This document shows, in pieces, positions 15,031-24,660 of a DNA stretch of 64,000 bases; position 1 is the stretch's first letter; each line of letters begins with the position of its first letter. Source of the stretch: Flavobacterium sp. HSC-61S13. GTDB lineage: Bacteria; Bacteroidota; Bacteroidia; Flavobacteriales; Flavobacteriaceae. A program made the translations under genes and the position numbers. Under the pieces are notes generated by a model, which had not been told where the DNA came from, searched no databases, and saw only the letters and a program-made list of their open reading frames with translations. The stretch lies in NCBI RefSeq assembly GCF_024171535.1, contig NZ_JALJZV010000004.1, positions 124,001 to 188,000 on the forward strand. The letters are read 5' to 3'.

Positions 15031-17268
15031 TTAATGCTTCTCAGCTAATTTAATCTTTTTATTAGAAAAATCGGTAGCGTGGATCGGCGCTCCTTTGTGT
15101 AGATCCTTTAAGATGTATACAGCCTCTTCTACATATACATCACTAGCTAAAGATTCATGCCATCTGTTACGTTTGTTTTCTAATATAGTGTCGTTTTTAA
15201 AACGCTCCAATTCGTAAGGTAATGAATTGAATTTTAAATGATTATTGTATTTGGAAATCGCTTTGAATTTCTTAGCTTTTTCTTCTACTTGTTCTTGACG
15301 CAATTTATACTTGTCGTAATTTAAACTAAAAACTTTCTCATCTTTGCGTTCATTGATCCATTTTGCATTTTCTGTAATCAATTTAAACTGATCATTGGTA
15401 GCAATTCTCTTTTTACTGTTAAGAATAGCAGTGCTAAAATCATTTTTTAACGGCGTATAGTTGGCGCGGTCAATTTTGTCCCACGGCATGGCGTTAGGAA
15501 TGTCGCGTTCTCCCATATCGATAAAGGAGAAACGGTCTGGTAAAACGACATCACTCAAAACCCCTTCACGTTGTGTTGATCCTCCATTAATTCTATAGAA
15601 TTTTTGTAAGGTTAGTTTTAGAGCACCTAGGTCGCCAAATGGTTGTTGGGCTTTAAGTAGTTCATTTAAGTTGATCACGTTTTGAACGGTACCTTTACCA
15701 TAAGTGTGCTTGCTTCCAATAACAACACCTCTTTTGTAGTCTTGTATTGCAGCAGCAAAAATTTCTGAGGCCGATGCTGAAAAGTTATTGACCATCACAA
15801 CCAAAGGACCTTCCCATTGTATTTTTGAATCACGATCAAACAAGACGTCTTTTTTACCTTTCGAAGATTTTACTTGAACGATTGGGCCTTGTTCTATAAA
15901 AAGACCAGCCATATCCACAACAGTTTGTAATGAACCACCACCGTTGTTTCTAAGATCCATAATAATTCCGCTAACGTTTTGTGCTTTTAAACGTTCCACT
16001 TCTTTGGTAACATCCTTAAAGGCATCGCGATTGTCTTTGTTCTCAAAATTGATGTAAAATTTTGGCAATTGAATCAAACCGTAAGTTTGATCGCCTATAT
16101 TGATCAGGCTCGATTTAGCATAGGTTTCCTCTAATTCAACAATCTCACGAATGATCGATATAACCACTACGGTACCATCAACTTTTTTTACGGTTAGGCG
16201 AACTTCAGTTCCCTTGTGACCTTTTATTTTTTTGACTACGTCCTCCAGGCGCATTCCCACAACATCTTCAGCCAATTCATCTCCCTGAGCGACTTTTAAG
16301 ATAAGATCCCCAGCCTCTAATTCTTTTCCTCTCCATGCTGGTCCACCCGGAATCAGTTCCGAAATTTCCGTAACATCATTTTTCTTTTGTAGTTTGGCAC
16401 CAATACCCTCAATAGTTCCACTCATGCTTGCATCAAATTTCTCTTTGTCCTCTGGAGCTAAATAGGAGCTATGTGGATCAAAACGTTCCACAATACTATT
16501 GACATAGATCGTAAACCAATCTTTGCGCTGCAATTCGTCTATAAAACCAAAATACTCATTTAAAGATTTTAACGTAGCTTCTCTAGCTTCTACCTCCAAT
16601 TCGGCAAAAGTTTTCTTTTCTACGGGTTTTTCATCTTTTTTCTTCGTTTTTGGAGTATAGGTGTCTGAATCCATATCGTCTTCAAATTCATCGGTAGCGA
16701 CTTCTTCACCATCTTGCAATTTTATTTTATCAGAAATCGTAGACAAAACGGAAAGTTTAAGTTGTTTTTCCCAACGCTTTTTTAAGGCCTCCTCATCGGC
16801 TGAAAATGCTTGTTTGTCGTAGTCCGCATCAAATGTTTCATTGGCATAAAGATTAAACGGTTTACTTAAGATATCTTTATAGATAACTTGAGCATCCGAC
16901 ATGCGTTGTACGATTCTATCGTGCGTTAAATTAAAGAACGACAAGTCCTTCAATTTAATCATATCATCGATTAAATACTCGTATTTTGAAAACTCATCTA
17001 TATCTGCTTGTGTAAAAAAACGTTTCGTCGGGTCCAAGGATTTGATATATTCTTTATAAACATCTTTGGAAAATGTATCGTCGATTTTTACGGGGTCATA
17101 ATGGCCTTTTTCAAGTAAATACGTAATCATTTCAATCAGTAATTGATCCTTTTCAGGATTCTCCTTCGGCTCCTTTGGCATAAAACTCCACAACAGAGTA
17201 GATACGCCTAAAATGAGTAGTATTATCTTATAGTTTCTTTTCATAAATGACCAAATAGTGTTCATCAA
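15031..17268 (-). CDS. prc: Tail-specific (C-terminal processing) periplasmic protease
   Basis: 745 residues. A membrane or signal segment (about 12-29) is followed by an N-terminal Tsp domain (DPTKRFFTQADIDEFSKYE), a PDZ domain (about 285-370: GTIEGIGAKLQ, ISELIPGGPA, LEAGDLILKV) and the S41 protease core. The catalytic Ser/Lys dyad fits Ser499 in SASASEIFAAAIQDY and Lys525 in YGKGTVQ, judged by spacing to E. coli Tsp. A Lys-rich insert at 190-225 looks disordered. It degrades or trims periplasmic proteins from their C-termini. ATG codons at 17268, 17265 and 17244 are possible starts. Confidence 0.92.
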   Translation of the reverse strand: MMNTIWSFMKRNYKIILLILGVSTLLWSFMPKEPKENPEKDQLLIEMITYLLEKGHYDPVKIDDTFSKDVYKEYIKSLDPTKRFFTQADIDEFSKYEYLIDDMIKLKDLSFFNLTHDRIVQRMSDAQVIYKDILSKPFNLYANETFDADYDKQAFSADEEALKKRWEKQLKLSVLSTISDKIKLQDGEEVATDEFEDDMDSDTYTPKTKKKDEKPVEKKTFAELEVEAREATLKSLNEYFGFIDELQRKDWFTIYVNSIVERFDPHSSYLAPEDKEKFDASMSGTIEGIGAKLQKKNDVTEISELIPGGPAWRGKELEAGDLILKVAQGDELAEDVVGMRLEDVVKKIKGHKGTEVRLTVKKVDGTVVVISIIREIVELEETYAKSSLINIGDQTYGLIQLPKFYINFENKDNRDAFKDVTKEVERLKAQNVSGIIMDLRNNGGGSLQTVVDMAGLFIEQGPIVQVKSSKGKKDVLFDRDSKIQWEGPLVVMVNNFSASASEIFAAAIQDYKRGVVIGSKHTYGKGTVQNVINLNELLKAQQPFGDLGALKLTLQKFYRINGGSTQREGVLSDVVLPDRFSFIDMGERDIPNAMPWDKIDRANYTPLKNDFSTAILNSKKRIATNDQFKLITENAKWINERKDEKVFSLNYDKYKLRQEQVEEKAKKFKAISKYNNHLKFNSLPYELERFKNDTILENKRNRWHESLASDVYVEEAVYILKDLHKGAPIHATDFSNKKIKLAEKH

Positions 17269-17447
17269 TTAATTTTCATCTAAAGTAAGTAATTTATTAG
17301 AGACTTAATATGAGGCTCCAATAATATTTTGTTAAACCTTAGTGTTAAAATTCAAAGGATAGGTTAAGTTTTTTAGCGGTTGAGCCCAAGTGTAATTGCG
17401 TATACTTATATATTTATTACTTTAGCGAAAGTAAATAAAATAATGCA

Positions 17448-18218
17448 ATGAAACAAAAACCCTTAATTTTAGTAACGAATGACGACAGTATAGTAGCACC
17501 TGGGATTCGCGCATTGATTCAGGTGATGAAGGAAATTGGTGAAGTGGTGGTAGTTGCTCCAGACAAAGCACAGTCAGCCATGGGACATGCCGTTACGATC
17601 AACAGTACCTTGTCTATCGAACGGGTGTCAATCGATCCCGATTTGGACGCGGAATATAGCTGTTCTGGAACACCGGTGGATTGCGTAAAAATCGCGTTGG
17701 ACCAAATTCTAGATCGCAAACCGGATATCTGTGTTTCCGGTATCAACCACGGTTCCAATTCTTCGATTAATGTAATCTATTCTGGAACCATGAGTGCCGC
17801 TCTAGAAGCGGGAATGAGTGGAATTCCAGCTATTGGTTTTTCGCTTCAGGATTTTAGTTGGAACGCTAATTTTGATGAAGTCATGTCTTTTGTGAAACAG
17901 CTTACCTTGGAGACCTTGAAAAATGGACTTCCTGAAGGAATAGTACTGAATGTCAATTTTCCCAAATTAAAGAAAGAGGAAATACAAGGAATAAAAATAT
18001 GTAGACAAGCTAAGGCTACTTGGCAAGAAAAGTTTGATAAACGCGTAAGTCCACACGGTAAAGAATATTATTGGTTAACAGGAGAATTTGTTAATCAAGA
18101 TAAGGGAGAGGATACTGATGAATGGGCTTTAAAACACGGTTATATTTCTGTTGTTCCAGTTCAATTTGACTTAACGGCTTATCATGCCATACAGCAATTA
18201 AATCGTTGGGAATTGTAA
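17448..18218 (+). CDS. surE: 5'/3'-nucleotidase SurE
   Basis: 256 residues. The metal-binding start TNDDSIVAPGI (Asp12, Asp13) is followed by VVAPDKAQSAMGHAVT, YSCSGTPVDCVKIAL and GINHGSNSSINVIYSGTMSAALEA, all SurE signatures. It dephosphorylates nucleoside 5'- and 3'-monophosphates. It begins the rightward run surE-lpxB-NlpC-comEC, an order I know from other Flavobacteriaceae. A 303-bp gap before lpxB makes a single transcript uncertain. Confidence 0.95.
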   Translation: MKQKPLILVTNDDSIVAPGIRALIQVMKEIGEVVVVAPDKAQSAMGHAVTINSTLSIERVSIDPDLDAEYSCSGTPVDCVKIALDQILDRKPDICVSGINHGSNSSINVIYSGTMSAALEAGMSGIPAIGFSLQDFSWNANFDEVMSFVKQLTLETLKNGLPEGIVLNVNFPKLKKEEIQGIKICRQAKATWQEKFDKRVSPHGKEYYWLTGEFVNQDKGEDTDEWALKHGYISVVPVQFDLTAYHAIQQLNRWEL

Positions 18219-18521
18219 GGGGGATTGCAAGGGGCGGTAGTTGTTTTTGCTAATTTTCAAGCTTAAAGGGATCGTTTTAAAGGGTTGATTTTAAGGCGTT
18301 GCTCGTTTTTCACACGGTTTGTAGTGCTACAATTGGCTTAAGTTTGTCTGCGTTTTTTAAAAAAATAGATGTTTTTAATACTTGCAGGCATTATCTTAGC
18401 GCTTGAAATGTAAGCCCGATGCTGTCCAACGGTCCGCACGGCAAGTTTAATCGCTCGCGATGTCACGAATTGGAAAAACATCGGCGTTGTGGGATTATTT
18501 ATAAATATTTAGTAAGTAGGT
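18219..18521. other. 303-bp gap between surE and lpxB
   Basis: No reading frame with recognisable content and no strong hairpin. The last third (about 18415-18470) is noticeably richer in CG than its surroundings (words such as GGTCCGCACGGC and GCTCGCGATG), unlike a typical AT-rich leader here. It may hold the lpxB promoter, a decayed gene piece or a small RNA; none can be supported. Confidence 0.4.
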
Positions 18522-19631
18522 ATGAAATATTATATTATAGCCGGAGAGGCCTCGGGAGATTTACACGGTTCTAATCTTATGAAGTCGCTTTTTGAAGAAG
18601 ATCCACAATCTGAAATTCGCTTTTGGGGTGGAGATTTGATGGAAAGAGTGGGGGGAACCTTAGTGAAACACTATCGCGAACTGGCATTTATGGGGTTTGC
18701 AGAGGTCATTCAAAACTTAGGGACTATTCTAAGAAATATTTCCATTTGCAAAAAAGATATCGAAGCATTTGCTCCCGATGCGATAATATTTATCGATTAT
18801 CCCGGTTTTAATATGCGCATCGCCAAATGGGCTAAAAAGAAAGGCATACCAACTCATTACTATATATCTCCTCAAATTTGGGCATGGAAGGAAAACAGGA
18901 TTAAAGCGATCAAACGCGATGTGGATCACATGTATGTCATTTTACCGTTTGAAAAGGATTTCTACGAGAAAAAACACGGTTTTCCCGTTCAGTTTGTAGG
19001 GCATCCTTTGATTGATGCCGTTGCGCAATATCGGGCAACAGCAGATCCGCAGTTTAGAGAGCGCCATCAACTTGATGATCGTCCCATTATTGCATTGCTG
19101 CCGGGGAGTAGAAAACAGGAAATCACGCGTTTGTTATCTGAGATGTTAACCGTGGTCCCGAATTTTGCAAATTTTCAGTTTGTTATCGCCGGAGCTCCAA
19201 GTCAGGATTTTGACTTTTATCGGCAGTTTCTCGTAAATAAAAATGTGGTATTTATTTCCAATGAAACTTATGGTCTGCTCAATGTTGCTTATGCGGCTTT
19301 GGTCACTTCGGGTACAGCGACTTTAGAAACGGCTTTGTTTAAGGTGCCTCAAGTGGTACTGTATAAAGCAAGTCCGATTTCTTATCAAATAGCAAAGAGA
19401 ATAATTACACTTAAATTCATCTCTTTAGTCAACTTAATTATGGATCGAGAAGTGGTCAAAGAGCTGGTGCAGAATGATTGTAATAAAAAACGCATACATG
19501 AGGAGTTTACTAAGATTATTCAAGATCAAGGTAGAACTAAAATGTTGCAAAATTATGATATACTGATAGATAAGCTCGGCGGCGAAGGGGCAAGTAAATT
19601 AACCGCACAATTAATTAATAAAAATTTATGA
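18522..19631 (+). CDS. lpxB: Lipid-A-disaccharide synthase
   Basis: 369 residues, the usual LpxB length, beginning with the diagnostic YIIAGEASGDLHG. Then follow AFMGFAEVI, FIDYPGFNMRIAKWAKKKG, YYISPQIWAWKENRIKAIK, FVGHPLID and LLPGSRKQEI, and the donor region VTSGTATLETALFKVPQVVLYKAS. It condenses UDP-2,3-diacylglucosamine with lipid X to form the lipid A disaccharide at the inner membrane, confirming an LPS-bearing outer membrane. Confidence 0.97.
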   Translation: MKYYIIAGEASGDLHGSNLMKSLFEEDPQSEIRFWGGDLMERVGGTLVKHYRELAFMGFAEVIQNLGTILRNISICKKDIEAFAPDAIIFIDYPGFNMRIAKWAKKKGIPTHYYISPQIWAWKENRIKAIKRDVDHMYVILPFEKDFYEKKHGFPVQFVGHPLIDAVAQYRATADPQFRERHQLDDRPIIALLPGSRKQEITRLLSEMLTVVPNFANFQFVIAGAPSQDFDFYRQFLVNKNVVFISNETYGLLNVAYAALVTSGTATLETALFKVPQVVLYKASPISYQIAKRIITLKFISLVNLIMDREVVKELVQNDCNKKRIHEEFTKIIQDQGRTKMLQNYDILIDKLGGEGASKLTAQLINKNL

Positions 19632-19632
19632 G

Positions 19633-19661
19633 TTGTTTTTTAAAATAAAATTCTATATTTG
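19633..19661 (+). promoter_or_regulatory. Promoter of the NlpC/P60 gene
   Basis: TTG (19633-19635), 18-bp spacer, TATATTTG (19654-19661), 22 bp before the ATG at 19684. It starts 1 bp after the lpxB stop. Confidence 0.75.
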
Positions 19662-19683
19662 TGAGATAACAACATCGATAATT

Positions 19684-20346
19684 ATGAAAACGTACGCTTC
19701 CGCCTTCTTAATTGTACTGCTGTTATTGTCTGGACGAACGCATGCAAGTTCCTTGCAAAAAGTCACTTTAGATAATATCACGCCTGCAAATAATCCTCCC
19801 AAGAATAACAATAAAGGGAAAAAGAAACCAACCTCGAATACCAAAGGTAAAGATCTAGCCGCAAACGAAACTAAAGAAGTTAGTGTAGAGGAATTGGCAA
19901 AGATTTTAAATGAGATTGATGAAACTAGTCGTAAAGAAGATACGGGTAGTTACTTAACTGAGCAATTGTTGAACAATGCAGAGGATTATAAAGGAGTTCG
20001 CTACCGATTTGGAGGCACTTCAAGAGATGGGATGGATTGTTCCGGATTTGTTACCACGGCATTTAATGCTTTGGATATTTCCCTGCCGAGATCTTCAAGA
20101 GATATGGCATCCATCGGTGAAAAAATTAATTCTTCTGAAGCGCAGAAAGGGGATTTAATCTTTTTTAAAACCGGTAAAAAATCAAGAATTAGTCACGTTG
20201 GAATTATAGTTGAAGTTAAAGGAGAGGATATTAAATTTATACACTCTTCTACATCAAAGGGGGTGATTGTGTCTTCACTTAGTGAAGCTTATTACAACCG
20301 TACTTTTGCACAGATCAATAGAGTTTACGAAAAACAACTATTATAG
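19684..20346 (+). CDS. Secreted NlpC/P60 (C40) peptidoglycan hydrolase
   Basis: About 220 residues from the ATG at 19684, chosen because a signal peptide starts there (MKTYASAFLIVLLLLSGRTHAS) and a consensus promoter lies just upstream; an in-frame start 51 bp earlier would sit on that promoter. A low-complexity Asn/Lys/Pro linker (about 35-60) precedes the NlpC/P60 domain with Cys119 (GMDCSGFV), His171 (RISHVGII) and His187 (FIHSST). It cleaves peptide stems of peptidoglycan in the periplasm. Confidence 0.9.
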   Translation: MKTYASAFLIVLLLLSGRTHASSLQKVTLDNITPANNPPKNNNKGKKKPTSNTKGKDLAANETKEVSVEELAKILNEIDETSRKEDTGSYLTEQLLNNAEDYKGVRYRFGGTSRDGMDCSGFVTTAFNALDISLPRSSRDMASIGEKINSSEAQKGDLIFFKTGKKSRISHVGIIVEVKGEDIKFIHSSTSKGVIVSSLSEAYYNRTFAQINRVYEKQLL

Positions 20347-20375
20347 TTAAATAGCAGTCTAACTGCTTGATTGAC

Positions 20376-20426
20376 AAGGAAATTTCAATATCTTCAGTCC
20401 ATGAAGATATTGAAATTTCCTTTTTT
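20376..20426 (+). promoter_or_regulatory. 21-bp perfect hairpin plus T-run over the comEC start
   Basis: The left arm 20376-20396 pairs without mismatch with 20402-20422. The loop GTCCA holds the A of the ATG at 20401, and T residues follow to 20426. It has the form of an intrinsic terminator whose right arm is codons 1-7 of comEC. A smaller 6-bp hairpin, AGCAGT-CTA-ACTGCT (20353-20367), lies just upstream. It may terminate the NlpC transcript, attenuate comEC, hide its ribosome-binding region, or do more than one of these. Confidence 0.8.
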
Positions 20427-22410
20427 AAGCCTTTCCATATTCTTTGTTTTAGGCATTTTATCTCATCCCTTTTTGACCAAGAGCCGTGTAGTGGTGCTTT
20501 TATATCTCACTAGTTGCGTGCTCTTAGCACGAATTGGGAGCAAGACTTTTTTGCATCTTTATTATCGTTGCTTTTACTGGATTTGTTATGCGGCGATCTA
20601 TTGGAGCCTCGGTTTGTTTATTGCTTCGATGCATTCGATACCCACTCAAAAACACCATTATCAGCAAGTGCTGAATAAGGAAACGAGGCAGTTTTTAAAA
20701 TTGTTAGTTGTAGAAAAACTGAAACCGAATCAGTTTTCGAATCGCTATATCGCGCAGCTTGTTCAGGTTGATCAAAAGGTGACTTTCGGTAAAGTCTTGG
20801 TTATAGAGCCGATTAAATACGATAGTGTCTCACGGTTTATCGGCGAGGAGTTACATGTTTATCAATTGGTACAAGATATTAAAAAACCTCTAAATCCATA
20901 TCAGTTTGACTACAATAGGTATATGGAACGTCAGGGCGTTGTGGGGCAAGTCTATCTAACCGATCAAAATGTTGTTCATGGCGGTCGTCAGTTTACATTT
21001 TTGTCGCGAATTGCCAATTGGCGCGACGGATTAATGGCAGGTTTTGAGATACATCAGTTTAATCCAGAGGTTTTAGCGATTATCAAAGCCTTGATGTTTG
21101 GGCAAAGGCAAGAACTTTCGACCGAGTTAAAAAGAGATTTTAGTCGTGTTGGAGTCATTCATGTTTTAGCGATATCAGGACTGCATATCGGGATACTGTA
21201 TTTTTTTATCGTAAAATTTTTAAAGCTGTTTCGATTGGAAATCCGATTGATATATCTTTTTGCGCTAATGGTTTTGTGGTTGTTTGCGTTGATTTCCGGT
21301 TTTGCGCCACCAGTCGTGCGAGCAGTAACGATGTTTACCGTATTCGTAGTAATCAAGTTTTTAAGGCGCTCGCAAAGCAACGCAAACAGTTTGGCAATAA
21401 GTTTTTTTGTTATGTTGTGTTTTAATCCCGACTATATTTATGAGGTCGGGTTTCAGCTCAGTTTTTTAGCGGTTTTTTCAATCGTTTATTTTTATCCTAT
21501 AATTCAGCCTTTCGCGAATTCCAAATGGCTGTTGCTAAAATATTTCAAAGAGATCATCGCGGTTTCCCTAGTCGTGCAAATCGGGATCTTACCGTTGAGT
21601 ATCTATTATTTTTATGAAGTTCCGTTGTTATTTCTTGTGGGCAATGTGATAGTGATTCCGTTGGTAACACTGATTTTGGGAATGTTGTTGGTGTTATTGT
21701 TTTTAAATTATTTATCTGTTGAGGGAGCCCTAGTAGTTGGGAAGTTGGTCAGTAGGCTGATTGGCATTATGAATGAACTTATTCGCGTAGTGGGACAGTT
21801 GTCGATTTACAACGCACAGCAGCTGTCGTTAAATGGCTTTTTAGCTGTGTTTACAGTCTTTAGTTTGGTGTTTGTTGGATATGTGGTTAAAAGCCGTAAA
21901 ATCGAATATTTGAGCCTTTTATTGGTGGTGATACTTGCAGGGCAGTTGTTGTATATGGATTTGATCTTTAAATCGCGATTACAATCAGAAGTTTTGTTGT
22001 TGTTTGATCGGGTTCATACCACTATACTGTTTAAACAACAGCACCTATTGGATGTATATTCGTCGAATCACAAGGTCTTGGATGCTCCTATTATAAAAGA
22101 TTATTGCCGGGAACGGTTTATCAAGGTGGTAAGTAAAAATCCGGTTCAAGGATTGTTGGAAATAAATGGTCAAAGAGTATTATTGATTGATAGCACGGGG
22201 ATTTATCAAACCGCTCTTAAAGCAGATGTATTAATCTTTGTTGGTAATGCCAAGGTCAACTACCATCGCATCATTGATTTTCATCAACCCGATTTGGTTT
22301 TGACAGCGGCTAATTTTTCATTGTGGGAAAGTGGCAGGCTTTCTGAGTTTTGTTTAAAAAAAAATATCCCTTTTCACAGTATATCGGAAAAGGGATATTA
22401 TAAATTCTAA
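20401..22410 (+). CDS. comEC: ComEC/Rec2 family DNA-uptake channel
   Basis: 669 residues from the ATG at 20401 (MKILKFPFLSLSIFFVLGIL, the usual flavobacterial start); an in-frame TTG at 20371 is less likely. An N-terminal DUF4131-like part is followed by the Competence domain (RDFSRVGVIHVLAISGLHIGIL, PPVVRAVTMFTVFVV, YEVGFQLSFLAVFSIVYFYP), with many membrane helices. The C-terminal region after about residue 520 keeps the approximate length of a metallo-beta-lactamase domain but shows no HxHxDH metal site. It carries single-stranded DNA across the inner membrane in competent bacteria. The start lies inside a strong hairpin. Confidence 0.9.
   Translation: MKILKFPFLSLSIFFVLGILSHPFLTKSRVVVLLYLTSCVLLARIGSKTFLHLYYRCFYWICYAAIYWSLGLFIASMHSIPTQKHHYQQVLNKETRQFLKLLVVEKLKPNQFSNRYIAQLVQVDQKVTFGKVLVIEPIKYDSVSRFIGEELHVYQLVQDIKKPLNPYQFDYNRYMERQGVVGQVYLTDQNVVHGGRQFTFLSRIANWRDGLMAGFEIHQFNPEVLAIIKALMFGQRQELSTELKRDFSRVGVIHVLAISGLHIGILYFFIVKFLKLFRLEIRLIYLFALMVLWLFALISGFAPPVVRAVTMFTVFVVIKFLRRSQSNANSLAISFFVMLCFNPDYIYEVGFQLSFLAVFSIVYFYPIIQPFANSKWLLLKYFKEIIAVSLVVQIGILPLSIYYFYEVPLLFLVGNVIVIPLVTLILGMLLVLLFLNYLSVEGALVVGKLVSRLIGIMNELIRVVGQLSIYNAQQLSLNGFLAVFTVFSLVFVGYVVKSRKIEYLSLLLVVILAGQLLYMDLIFKSRLQSEVLLLFDRVHTTILFKQQHLLDVYSSNHKVLDAPIIKDYCRERFIKVVSKNPVQGLLEINGQRVLLIDSTGIYQTALKADVLIFVGNAKVNYHRIIDFHQPDLVLTAANFSLWESGRLSEFCLKKNIPFHSISEKGYYKF
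22363..22399 (-). terminator. Thioredoxin-gene terminator lying inside the comEC 3' end
   Basis: A 12-bp perfect stem (22363-22374 with 22388-22399). On the minus strand it is followed by a run of T (22362-22356). It is 19 bp past the stop of the gene at 22418 and entirely within the last codons of comEC. Confidence 0.8.
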
Positions 22411-22417
22411 TACAAAT

Positions 22418-22873
22418 TTAGTTGGTTTCTTCCAAAAGTTGATCTGGAGTTTTGTAACCGACTATCGTTTTTCTAATGCTTCCGTCTTTTTCAAGAATGA
22501 CCATAGAAGGATATCCTGGAATTTTTAAAAAATCGGTAAATTGATGCATCGCATTTCTTCCTGTTCTACTGGCATCATAATTAGGATTCGAGTATTTTTT
22601 GTTTAAAAATTCGATGTCCTCGTTACCTTCAGCATTAAATTTAACAGCATTGTATTTTTCGTTGATCATTTTTATTACTGCCGGGGCACTAAAAGTATTT
22701 TGATCCAACATTTTACACGGACCACACCAATGGGTGTATACATCCATAAAAATGGGTTTTGAGTTTTTTTTCTGAGCTTTAATCGCTTCTTGAAAACTAA
22801 CCCATTTGATTTCTTGAGCCTGAGCGGTTACTCCTGCTATAGCGATTACAAAAAGCAATAAGAATTTCTTCAT
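22418..22873 (-). CDS. Periplasmic thioredoxin-fold protein
   Basis: 151 residues: a signal peptide (about 1-19, ending AQA) and a thioredoxin-like domain with WCGPC (Cys50, Cys53) in the context KPIFMDVYTHWCGPCKMLDQNTF, the DUF255/DsbD-gamma type of sequence, and the cis-proline region GYPSMVIL. It likely reduces or exchanges disulfides in the periplasm. It is last in the leftward dpp4-POT cluster, 23 bp after the last transporter, and is probably co-transcribed with it. Confidence 0.88.
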   Translation of the reverse strand: MKKFLLLFVIAIAGVTAQAQEIKWVSFQEAIKAQKKNSKPIFMDVYTHWCGPCKMLDQNTFSAPAVIKMINEKYNAVKFNAEGNEDIEFLNKKYSNPNYDASRTGRNAMHQFTDFLKIPGYPSMVILEKDGSIRKTIVGYKTPDQLLEETN

Positions 22874-22896
22874 TTTATTTAATTTTTAATCGATTA

Positions 22897-24660
22897 TTAT
22901 TTAACTCCGTGCATTAATTTCTTCATGAATGGATTTAGTAACATAACTAGTAATCCAGCTACAATCGGCACCACCGTGAAAATAAGGAAAAAGGTAGAAA
23001 GTGAATACTGATTGGTAATGTTTTCAATCTGACCTCCAATAACAGCGGCTAATTTATTTCCTACAGCAATAGCTAGGTACCACATACCAAACATAAATGC
23101 AATCATACGAGCAGGAACCAATTTAGAAACATAAGAAAGTCCCACTGGTGATAAACAAAGTTCTCCTAAGGTATGGAATAAATAGGCTAATATTAACCAA
23201 ATCATCGACACTTTAACGCCTTCAGCAACTCCATGAGAACCGTAAGCTAATAATCCAAATCCAATCGCCATAACGATTAATCCCAATCCGTATTTAACAG
23301 CGGCCGGTGGATTGTATTTACTATCCCACACTTTAGAAACAACTGAAGCGAAAGTAATGATAAAGAAAGAGTTTAAAATAGAGAACCAAGAAACGGTAAT
23401 TTCTGATGATTCCGCTGTGTATTCTTTATATAACATCCAAATAGCTACAGCCCATACTCCTAAGAAACAGATCGCTAATACGATATTGGATCCCGGTATT
23501 TTAGCCCAAGTTTGTTTTCCTAATAGGAGTAAAACCCAAGAGATAATGATTAAGGGAACTATGGTTAATAAAGTATTGACGATATTGAATGCGGTCAATG
23601 CGGATCCTTCTAAAGCGCGATCAACATTGTCTCTTGCGAAAATAACTAAAGATGAGGCTCCTTGTTCAAAAGACATCCAGAAGAAAATCGTGAAGAAGGC
23701 AAAAATGATCACGGCAATCATACGATCTCTAATGATCTTGGTGTAGCGAGACAGACGACTTACAATTAAAAAGATAAAAGCTACTAGGGCAACTAATATT
23801 GCAATACTTGGTCCATCAAGGCTTCCGTAGCTAAACGGGAACAAATTGATCTGGGCAATTTTTGACAAAGGGTCATTAATAGCGTATAAAAGACCAATAG
23901 TAGTGGTAATAGCGATTAAGATATAATCAACAAGAGTAAACGGATTTGGTTTGTCGTCTTCGTTATTCGAAGCTGCATTAGCAGTAGCGACAGCCAATTT
24001 TTTCTCTTTTGTAGGAACTTCTCCGATATTTCCGAATAACGGTTTGGCCAACCAGAATTGTAAGGTACCCAACAACATAAACACACCAGCTAAACCAAAT
24101 CCCCAATGCCATCCGATTTTTTCAGCTAGATATCCACAAAGCATCATTCCGAAGAAAGCACCTGCGTTTACTCCCATATAAAAAATAGTGTAGGCACCAT
24201 CTTTTTTCTCTGGGAATTTTTTATACATTTCTGAAAGTATAGAAGTCATGTTGGGTTTAAAGAAACCGGTACCAGCCACTAAAAGGCCTAGACCAATATA
24301 TAACATCATTGGCGTGTCTAAAGCCATAGCAGCATGCCCTAAGGTCATGATGATAGCTCCGACTACTACAGCCCAACGGTATCCGATGTATTTATCGGCA
24401 ATAATACCTCCAAAAATAGGTGTGATATAAAGCAACATAGCATAAGTACCATAAAGAGCACCAGCATTTTCTGCCGACCAACCCCATCCAGGATTGTCAC
24501 TCAAGATAGTCATGGTTAAGAATTGAATCAATAGAACTCTCATTCCATAAAAGGAAAAGCGTTCCCACATCTCTGTGAAAAACAAGACGAATAGCCCCGA
24601 GGGATGTCCTAGGACGGTAGATTTAAAAAAGTTTTGTTCTGTTGTTGTGTCTTCTGACAT
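22897..24660 (-). CDS. POT/PTR2 proton-coupled oligopeptide transporter (copy 1)
   Basis: 587 residues of the POT branch of the major facilitator superfamily. The TM1 signature FFTEMWERFSFYGMRVLL (ExxERFxYYG) is followed by GGIIADKYIGYRWAVVVG, GTGFFKPNMTSILSEMY and the PTR2 segment YTIFYMGVNAGAFFGMMLCGYLAEKIGWHWGFGLAG. It imports di- and tripeptides with protons. It is closest to copy 3 (shared GHPxGLFVLFFTEMWERFS and SWFxILNSFFIIT stretches) and longer in the central cytoplasmic loop (about 205-235). Third transporter in the cluster behind dpp4. Confidence 0.94.
   Translation of the reverse strand: MSEDTTTEQNFFKSTVLGHPSGLFVLFFTEMWERFSFYGMRVLLIQFLTMTILSDNPGWGWSAENAGALYGTYAMLLYITPIFGGIIADKYIGYRWAVVVGAIIMTLGHAAMALDTPMMLYIGLGLLVAGTGFFKPNMTSILSEMYKKFPEKKDGAYTIFYMGVNAGAFFGMMLCGYLAEKIGWHWGFGLAGVFMLLGTLQFWLAKPLFGNIGEVPTKEKKLAVATANAASNNEDDKPNPFTLVDYILIAITTTIGLLYAINDPLSKIAQINLFPFSYGSLDGPSIAILVALVAFIFLIVSRLSRYTKIIRDRMIAVIIFAFFTIFFWMSFEQGASSLVIFARDNVDRALEGSALTAFNIVNTLLTIVPLIIISWVLLLLGKQTWAKIPGSNIVLAICFLGVWAVAIWMLYKEYTAESSEITVSWFSILNSFFIITFASVVSKVWDSKYNPPAAVKYGLGLIVMAIGFGLLAYGSHGVAEGVKVSMIWLILAYLFHTLGELCLSPVGLSYVSKLVPARMIAFMFGMWYLAIAVGNKLAAVIGGQIENITNQYSLSTFFLIFTVVPIVAGLLVMLLNPFMKKLMHGVK

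Follow-up and report, generated by a model that had tools for sequence, protein, structure and literature searches.

What does a perfect hairpin do over the start codon of comEC, the gene for the inner-membrane DNA pore of natural transformation? The question arises in a 64,000-nucleotide stretch of the Flavobacterium sp. HSC-61S13 genome (hereafter the window), where comEC (20401-22410, plus strand; Pfam Competence and DUF4131) opens inside a hairpin with a 21-bp stem.

The comEC locus and its start codon

On one strand of the window lie surE, lpxB, an NlpC/P60 gene (nlpC; 19684-20346, plus strand; Pfam NLPC_P60) and comEC; a thioredoxin-like gene is convergent with comEC. The co-directional nlpC, which is the presumed source of read-through, ends at 20346, leaving 54 nt to the comEC ATG, and TATATTTG (19654-19661, plus strand), as read from the sequence, resembles a -7 box of its own.

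For comparison, we used 129 of the 383 genus genomes that match at E<=1e-60, mostly the most similar ones; the genus is probably Flavobacterium in its broad sense. Loci that duplicate the window or its sister (L001, L002, L033) and a truncated match from another genus (L034) were left out, and L061 was excluded for having no assigned start, which gives 128 comEC starts. Each start was placed at the aligned position or, in later loci, at the nearest start codon within 30 nt; a few of these assignments, such as that of L008, may be wrong. The nearest relative found is the metagenome-assembled genome UBA1682 (the sister), and a search of 398 genus genomes returned no comEC match at E<=1e-130 besides it. 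Identity to the sister is uneven, at approximately 90% over much of the region, 100% in a stretch of nlpC (20100-20250) and 63% near the comEC 3' end (22050-22200).

Translation of comEC likely starts at ATG 20401, because 105/128 genus relatives have Lys as the second residue from the aligned start, Phe/Tyr-Pro occurs at residues 5-9 in 121/128 as it does in the window, and an in-frame TTG at 20371 reads TTA in the nearest relative. In 126 of the 128 relatives, the first ORF of 90 or more codons found upstream runs in the direction of comEC. At the opposite end of the gene, the codons of the ComEC C-terminal motif IPFH...EKG make up a 13-bp inverted repeat (22363-22399) with a minus-strand T-run after it; this is likely a terminator of the convergent thioredoxin-like gene, placed within comEC coding sequence. 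A helix of at least 8 bp was present within the final 90 nt of comEC in 47 of the 49 genus loci examined.

A 21-bp hairpin over the start codon

An inverted-repeat check finds 20376-20396 (AAGGAAATTTCAATATCTTCA), in the nlpC-comEC gap, to be 100% complementary to 20402-20422, the first codons of comEC (protein start MKILKFPF), all on the plus strand. The two arms form a 21-bp stem around the 5-nt loop GTCCA (20397-20401), so that of the ATG (20401-20403) the A is the final loop base and TG are the first bases of the right arm. At the foot of the stem, a T-run (20421-20426, plus strand) places two T inside the stem and four past it, all of them belonging to Phe/Pro/Leu codons of comEC. Ahead of the main stem is a 6-bp hairpin, AGCAGT-CTA-ACTGCT (20353-20367, plus strand; arms 20353-20358 and 20362-20367), in which the pair 20354/20366 is G-C in the window and A-T in the nearest relative, a two-sided change. 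The first-pass annotation had described a flawless stem with a 5-base loop over the ATG, a small hairpin preceding it and a right arm encoding the first ComEC codons, and we recover each of these features at exact coordinates.

It had also judged a chance match very unlikely, and the fold of 20340-20440 bears this out, at -37 kcal/mol relative to a shuffle mean of -13.1 (z -9.1; none of 200 shuffles equals it). Among the 46 perfect hairpins (stem of 12+ bp, loop of 3-12 nt) in 447.5 kb of the same genome, that of comEC has the longest stem. When 370 ORFs from the same 447.5 kb were scored by their longest Watson-Crick helix joining the 45 nt upstream to the 36 nt from the start, comEC again ranked first with 21 bp, the runner-up reached 9 bp, and the average was 5.48 bp; these were ORFs of 100+ aa with the ATG of the longest ORF taken as the start, which makes the starts noisy. 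The covariance models of Rfam 15 produced zero matches at E<=1 in 17000-23500.

A promoter-like box within the left arm

Overlooked by the first-pass annotation, a -7 promoter-like box, TATCTTCA (20389-20396, plus strand), sits inside the left arm with its first T 12 nt before the ATG, a spacing suited to an mRNA that starts at the ATG. The promoter box of F. johnsoniae is reported as TAHHTTTG with T at -12 (PMC6847099), and in F. psychrophilum the -7 box occupies -12 to -5 relative to the transcription start, leaders have a median length of 24 nt and leaderless mRNAs make up 5.5% (PMC9723704). The window box fits TAHHTTTG except for its final base, which is A rather than G, and the last base is likewise not G in 26 of the 70 relatives with a box. 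These 70 of the 128 species, window included, carry TAnnTT either 12 nt (49) or 13 nt (21) ahead of the comEC start, compared with about 3 per position in shuffles, and the two middle (H) positions contain 0 G in all 70. Because the box lies 12-13 nt from the start and such a box spans -12 to -5, the comEC mRNA would be leaderless or nearly so in the 70 box species. A TTG 19 nt ahead of the box (20367-20369, plus strand), read from the sequence, is a weak -33 candidate; the cross-species comparison upstream of comEC gave no clear -33 motif.

Cognate pairing among relatives

In the sister, the corresponding position carries a perfect core of 18 bp, with an identical right arm and differences at two of the three outer left-arm bases. 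The longest Watson-Crick helices are those of the window (21 bp), the sister (18), L078 (16), and L017 and L019 (12 each). Most species of the genus lack a clear hairpin of their own, and the pairing is a population effect: a Watson-Crick helix of 8+ bp is found in 38/128 cognate combinations compared with 9.3% of non-cognate ones. Upstream DNA pairs with its own first codons over 7.05 bp, relative to 5.85 bp with the permuted codons of other species (z 12.0, n=128). The excess survives thinning to <60% identity (n=55, z 7.4), as well as thinning to <70% together with removal of the four longest helices (n=78, z 7.4), and cognate folds average -12.1 kcal/mol versus -8.4 in 300 chimeras. Phylogenetic simulations, in which upstream DNA evolved along a tree built on about 92 residues with site frequencies kept and indels not simulated, gave a null with a mean of about 0 and an sd of about 0.1; the observed excess of 1.19 was reached in 0/120 of them at each of two rates. 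Pairing at the comEC start is therefore kept among relatives.

Control starts displayed no excess, either at nlpC (5.22 cognate versus 5.43 non-cognate bp, n=45) or at the thioredoxin gene (5.41 versus 6.07, n=44); values below the non-cognate level are as expected if starts avoid structure, and positions -20 to +20 are described as generally less paired in F. johnsoniae (PMC6847099). Eleven other leaderless-like starts of the window genome average 5.45 bp, though many of these may be chance box matches. In the 15 species in which at most 20 nt separate comEC from the upstream ORF, there is no excess (z -0.1 with Watson-Crick pairs, 0.2 with G-U). Where the upstream gap is at least 110 nt (n=14), pairing is retained; a pure read-through model might predict its loss at such gaps, though this is not required. 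The excess is present in the species with a box at 12-13 nt (n=70, z 8.4) as well as in those lacking one there (n=58, z 5.5), and some box species, such as L010, L038 and L054, pair scantily. A reading in which the promoter box by itself accounts for the pairing is insufficient, as the excess persists against a null that includes the box and is seen in species lacking it as well. In other genera of the family (69 used of 133 family genomes with a match), the excess is weak, with a Watson-Crick z of 3.2 and, allowing G-U, a z of 1.7 (p 0.055). Clear cases among these genera are L174, L179 and L195, where AGTAACTT and AAGTTACT pair across the comEC start over 8-11 bp.

The first-pass annotation had proposed compensatory changes as a check. 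Two-sided changes within single columns are few. Counted on independent tree pairs in which the right base differs, and requiring both pairs to be Watson-Crick with the left base changed, they number 4/6, 2/7, 2/12, 3/16 and 1/13 in five variable columns, which is suggestive only. It had further held that relatives with the same ComEC N-terminus and no pairing arm would speak against a functional hairpin. Many relatives with a similar N-terminus do lack a clear hairpin, but pairing in the full set is far above the null level.

Pairing in sense-strand RNA or in DNA

Across all 128 species, the cognate excess rises from 1.19 with Watson-Crick pairs to 1.62 when G-U is allowed and is 0.70 when A-C is allowed instead; the corresponding values are 1.25, 2.05 and 0.66 in the box class, and 1.20, 1.49 and 0.80 in the thinned set (z 9.4, 9.3 and 5.3), where G-U raises the mean excess and leaves the z no higher. 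Within six variable column pairs, A-C combinations number 15 against 40.1 expected and G-U 46 against 56.6 in the box class, and 6 against 20.1 and 22 against 31.7 in the thinned set; as the six were chosen from 14 for variation and excess, only the contrast between G-U and A-C is informative. A DNA dyad would treat G-T and A-C mismatches alike, and the better tolerance of G-U therefore points to pairing that acts in sense-strand RNA. Given a sense RNA and the placing of the promoter, the paired RNA would have to come from upstream.

Alternative explanations

The first-pass annotation had read the hairpin as a terminator as well. Under this explanation, an intrinsic nlpC terminator overlaps the start of comEC, which relies on a promoter of its own for transcription. 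A terminator scan does flag 20377-20421 with its T-rich tail in the window, and both the sister (L004) and L017 have 6 T within the 8 nt past their best helix; only 24/128 species, however, have 5 or more, and the window itself has four T in the 8 nt that follow the full stem. Of the 46 long hairpins of the genome, 36 have arms that begin AAA, unlike that of comEC, whose G+C share of 0.24 is the seventh lowest of the 46, though not unique. A conserved terminator role is rejected on the grounds that the U-tract is not kept across relatives, and the explanation as a whole is unlikely; some additional termination in the window species is possible. The hairpin could also be a structured leader of comEC's own mRNA, a thermometer or riboregulator, with a promoter that lies ahead of the left arm. 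The RNA-level evidence would fit it equally, as would the excess where no box lies at 12-13 nt, and heat could conceivably melt short AT-rich stems. Yet the whole nlpC-comEC gap is 54 nt here, the box falls inside the left arm and the region has no Rfam match, which together leave this explanation with a slim chance.

Slimmer still is the prospect that the repeat works as DNA, either as an operator for a dimeric regulator or as a cruciform over the comEC promoter. The dyad does cover the -7 box and the start, and box spacing is fixed in 70/128 species, but the half-sites vary among species along with the codons (TACTTT, TATCTT, TATTTT, TACCTT), and G-U is tolerated above A-C, mismatches that a DNA dyad would not tell apart. 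Furthermore, 20340-20500 has no second copy in the genome at E<=0.001, although a short degenerate site would escape such a search. The G-U/A-C contrast and the missing second copy make the operator reading unlikely. Finally, the pairing might be a by-product, as the complement of ATGAARNTA is similar to the -7 box, and TA..TT pairs with AA..TA from sequence alone. Template switching at imperfect palindromes is a repeat-perfecting mechanism and could complete the match without selection; the two left-arm differences from the sister (AAGG in the window, AGCG in the sister) could be one templated event. Against this stand the survival of the excess under a null whose site frequencies include the box, its absence at the two control genes and at the 11 leaderless-like starts (many of them perhaps chance boxes), and the strand bias. 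We consider it the least probable of these explanations.

A proposed fold-back lock on read-through transcripts

We propose instead that the hairpin acts as a fold-back lock in RNA, one that stops comEC from being translated on transcripts entering from nlpC, with a probability of about 0.57. The proposal builds on computed features, namely the hairpin, the genus-wide cognate pairing, the sense-RNA bias and the spacing of the -7 box; from these we infer the transcription start, the read-through and the translation block. In RNA that reads through from nlpC, the left arm would pair with the first comEC codons and hide the start. RNA from comEC's own putative promoter, whose -7 box sits within the left arm, would begin no more than about 1 nt from the ATG, and would carry neither the left arm nor the lock. 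Only this promoter would then give rise to ComEC, and since the lock is limited to read-through RNA, no melting signal would be needed. Among the forms observed, that of the window species is the longest, and some termination may be contributed there by the T-run.

By folding, the helix is predicted to hide the comEC start in long transcripts: the predicted pairing of the first 15 nt averages 0.49 in leaderless and 0.70 in read-through RNA across the genus. In the window, the read-through value is 0.93, but the leaderless start is itself predicted to be paired (0.79). Other observations also weigh against the lock, including the many species without a clear hairpin, the box species that hardly pair, the weak support outside the genus and the excess in the 58 species lacking a box at 12-13 nt, for which no promoter has been placed. 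A broader version is more tentative, with the odds marginally against it: genus-wide, the -7 box may both launch a leaderless comEC mRNA and serve as an anti-start strand that blocks translation whenever its transcription comes from upstream, such that promoter and first codons co-evolve as a stem.

If the proposal is true, ComEC is tied to its own promoter, and the study of this promoter gains a direct and testable motive. F. johnsoniae possesses comEC along with other competence homologues, but it was not competent under conditions effective for Riemerella columbina (PMC7965970). The lock would also illustrate a way in which a gene within a co-directional cluster is insulated in bacteria that lack Shine-Dalgarno sequences, and that RNA pairing can link a promoter element to a coding start.

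Comparison with known systems

This kind of device is already known from phage and insertion elements. Among the papers listed by our literature searches, none described a hairpin at the comEC start, or such a device at a chromosomal competence gene with the -7 box within the blocking strand. Translation-inhibiting hairpins at starts include thermometers and riboswitch platforms, and the comEC start region is similarly paired; unlike them, it lacks an Rfam match, and an mRNA from its own promoter would bypass the hairpin. Among insertion elements, IS10 is protected from outside transcription. Likewise, IS200 has one stem-loop that ends impinging transcripts and a second that occludes the ribosome binding site (PMC3196728). 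The window also features two hairpins in a row, but the comEC locus is not a mobile element and its upstream hairpin is 6 bp long without a T-run.

A close parallel in mode of action is the I-TevI hairpin of phage T4, which forms only on transcripts from upstream promoters and hides the translation start, while RNA from the proximal late promoter does not contain enough sequence to form it; the same source names segB and mobE, along with sequestration of the ribosome binding site in soc and e (PMC2988022). For comEC, too, the start would be hidden in upstream-promoter RNA, and RNA from the proximal promoter is predicted to lack the hairpin. The differences are that comEC is chromosomal, in a phylum described as without Shine-Dalgarno sequences (PMC6847099), and none was seen directly ahead of the comEC ATG in the window. 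Because no Shine-Dalgarno sequence is sequestered, we regard the comEC hairpin as working like the I-TevI type and do not class it as a member. In comEC, the start and the first codons would be hidden, its own mRNA is predicted to be leaderless, and the -7 box forms part of the blocking strand.
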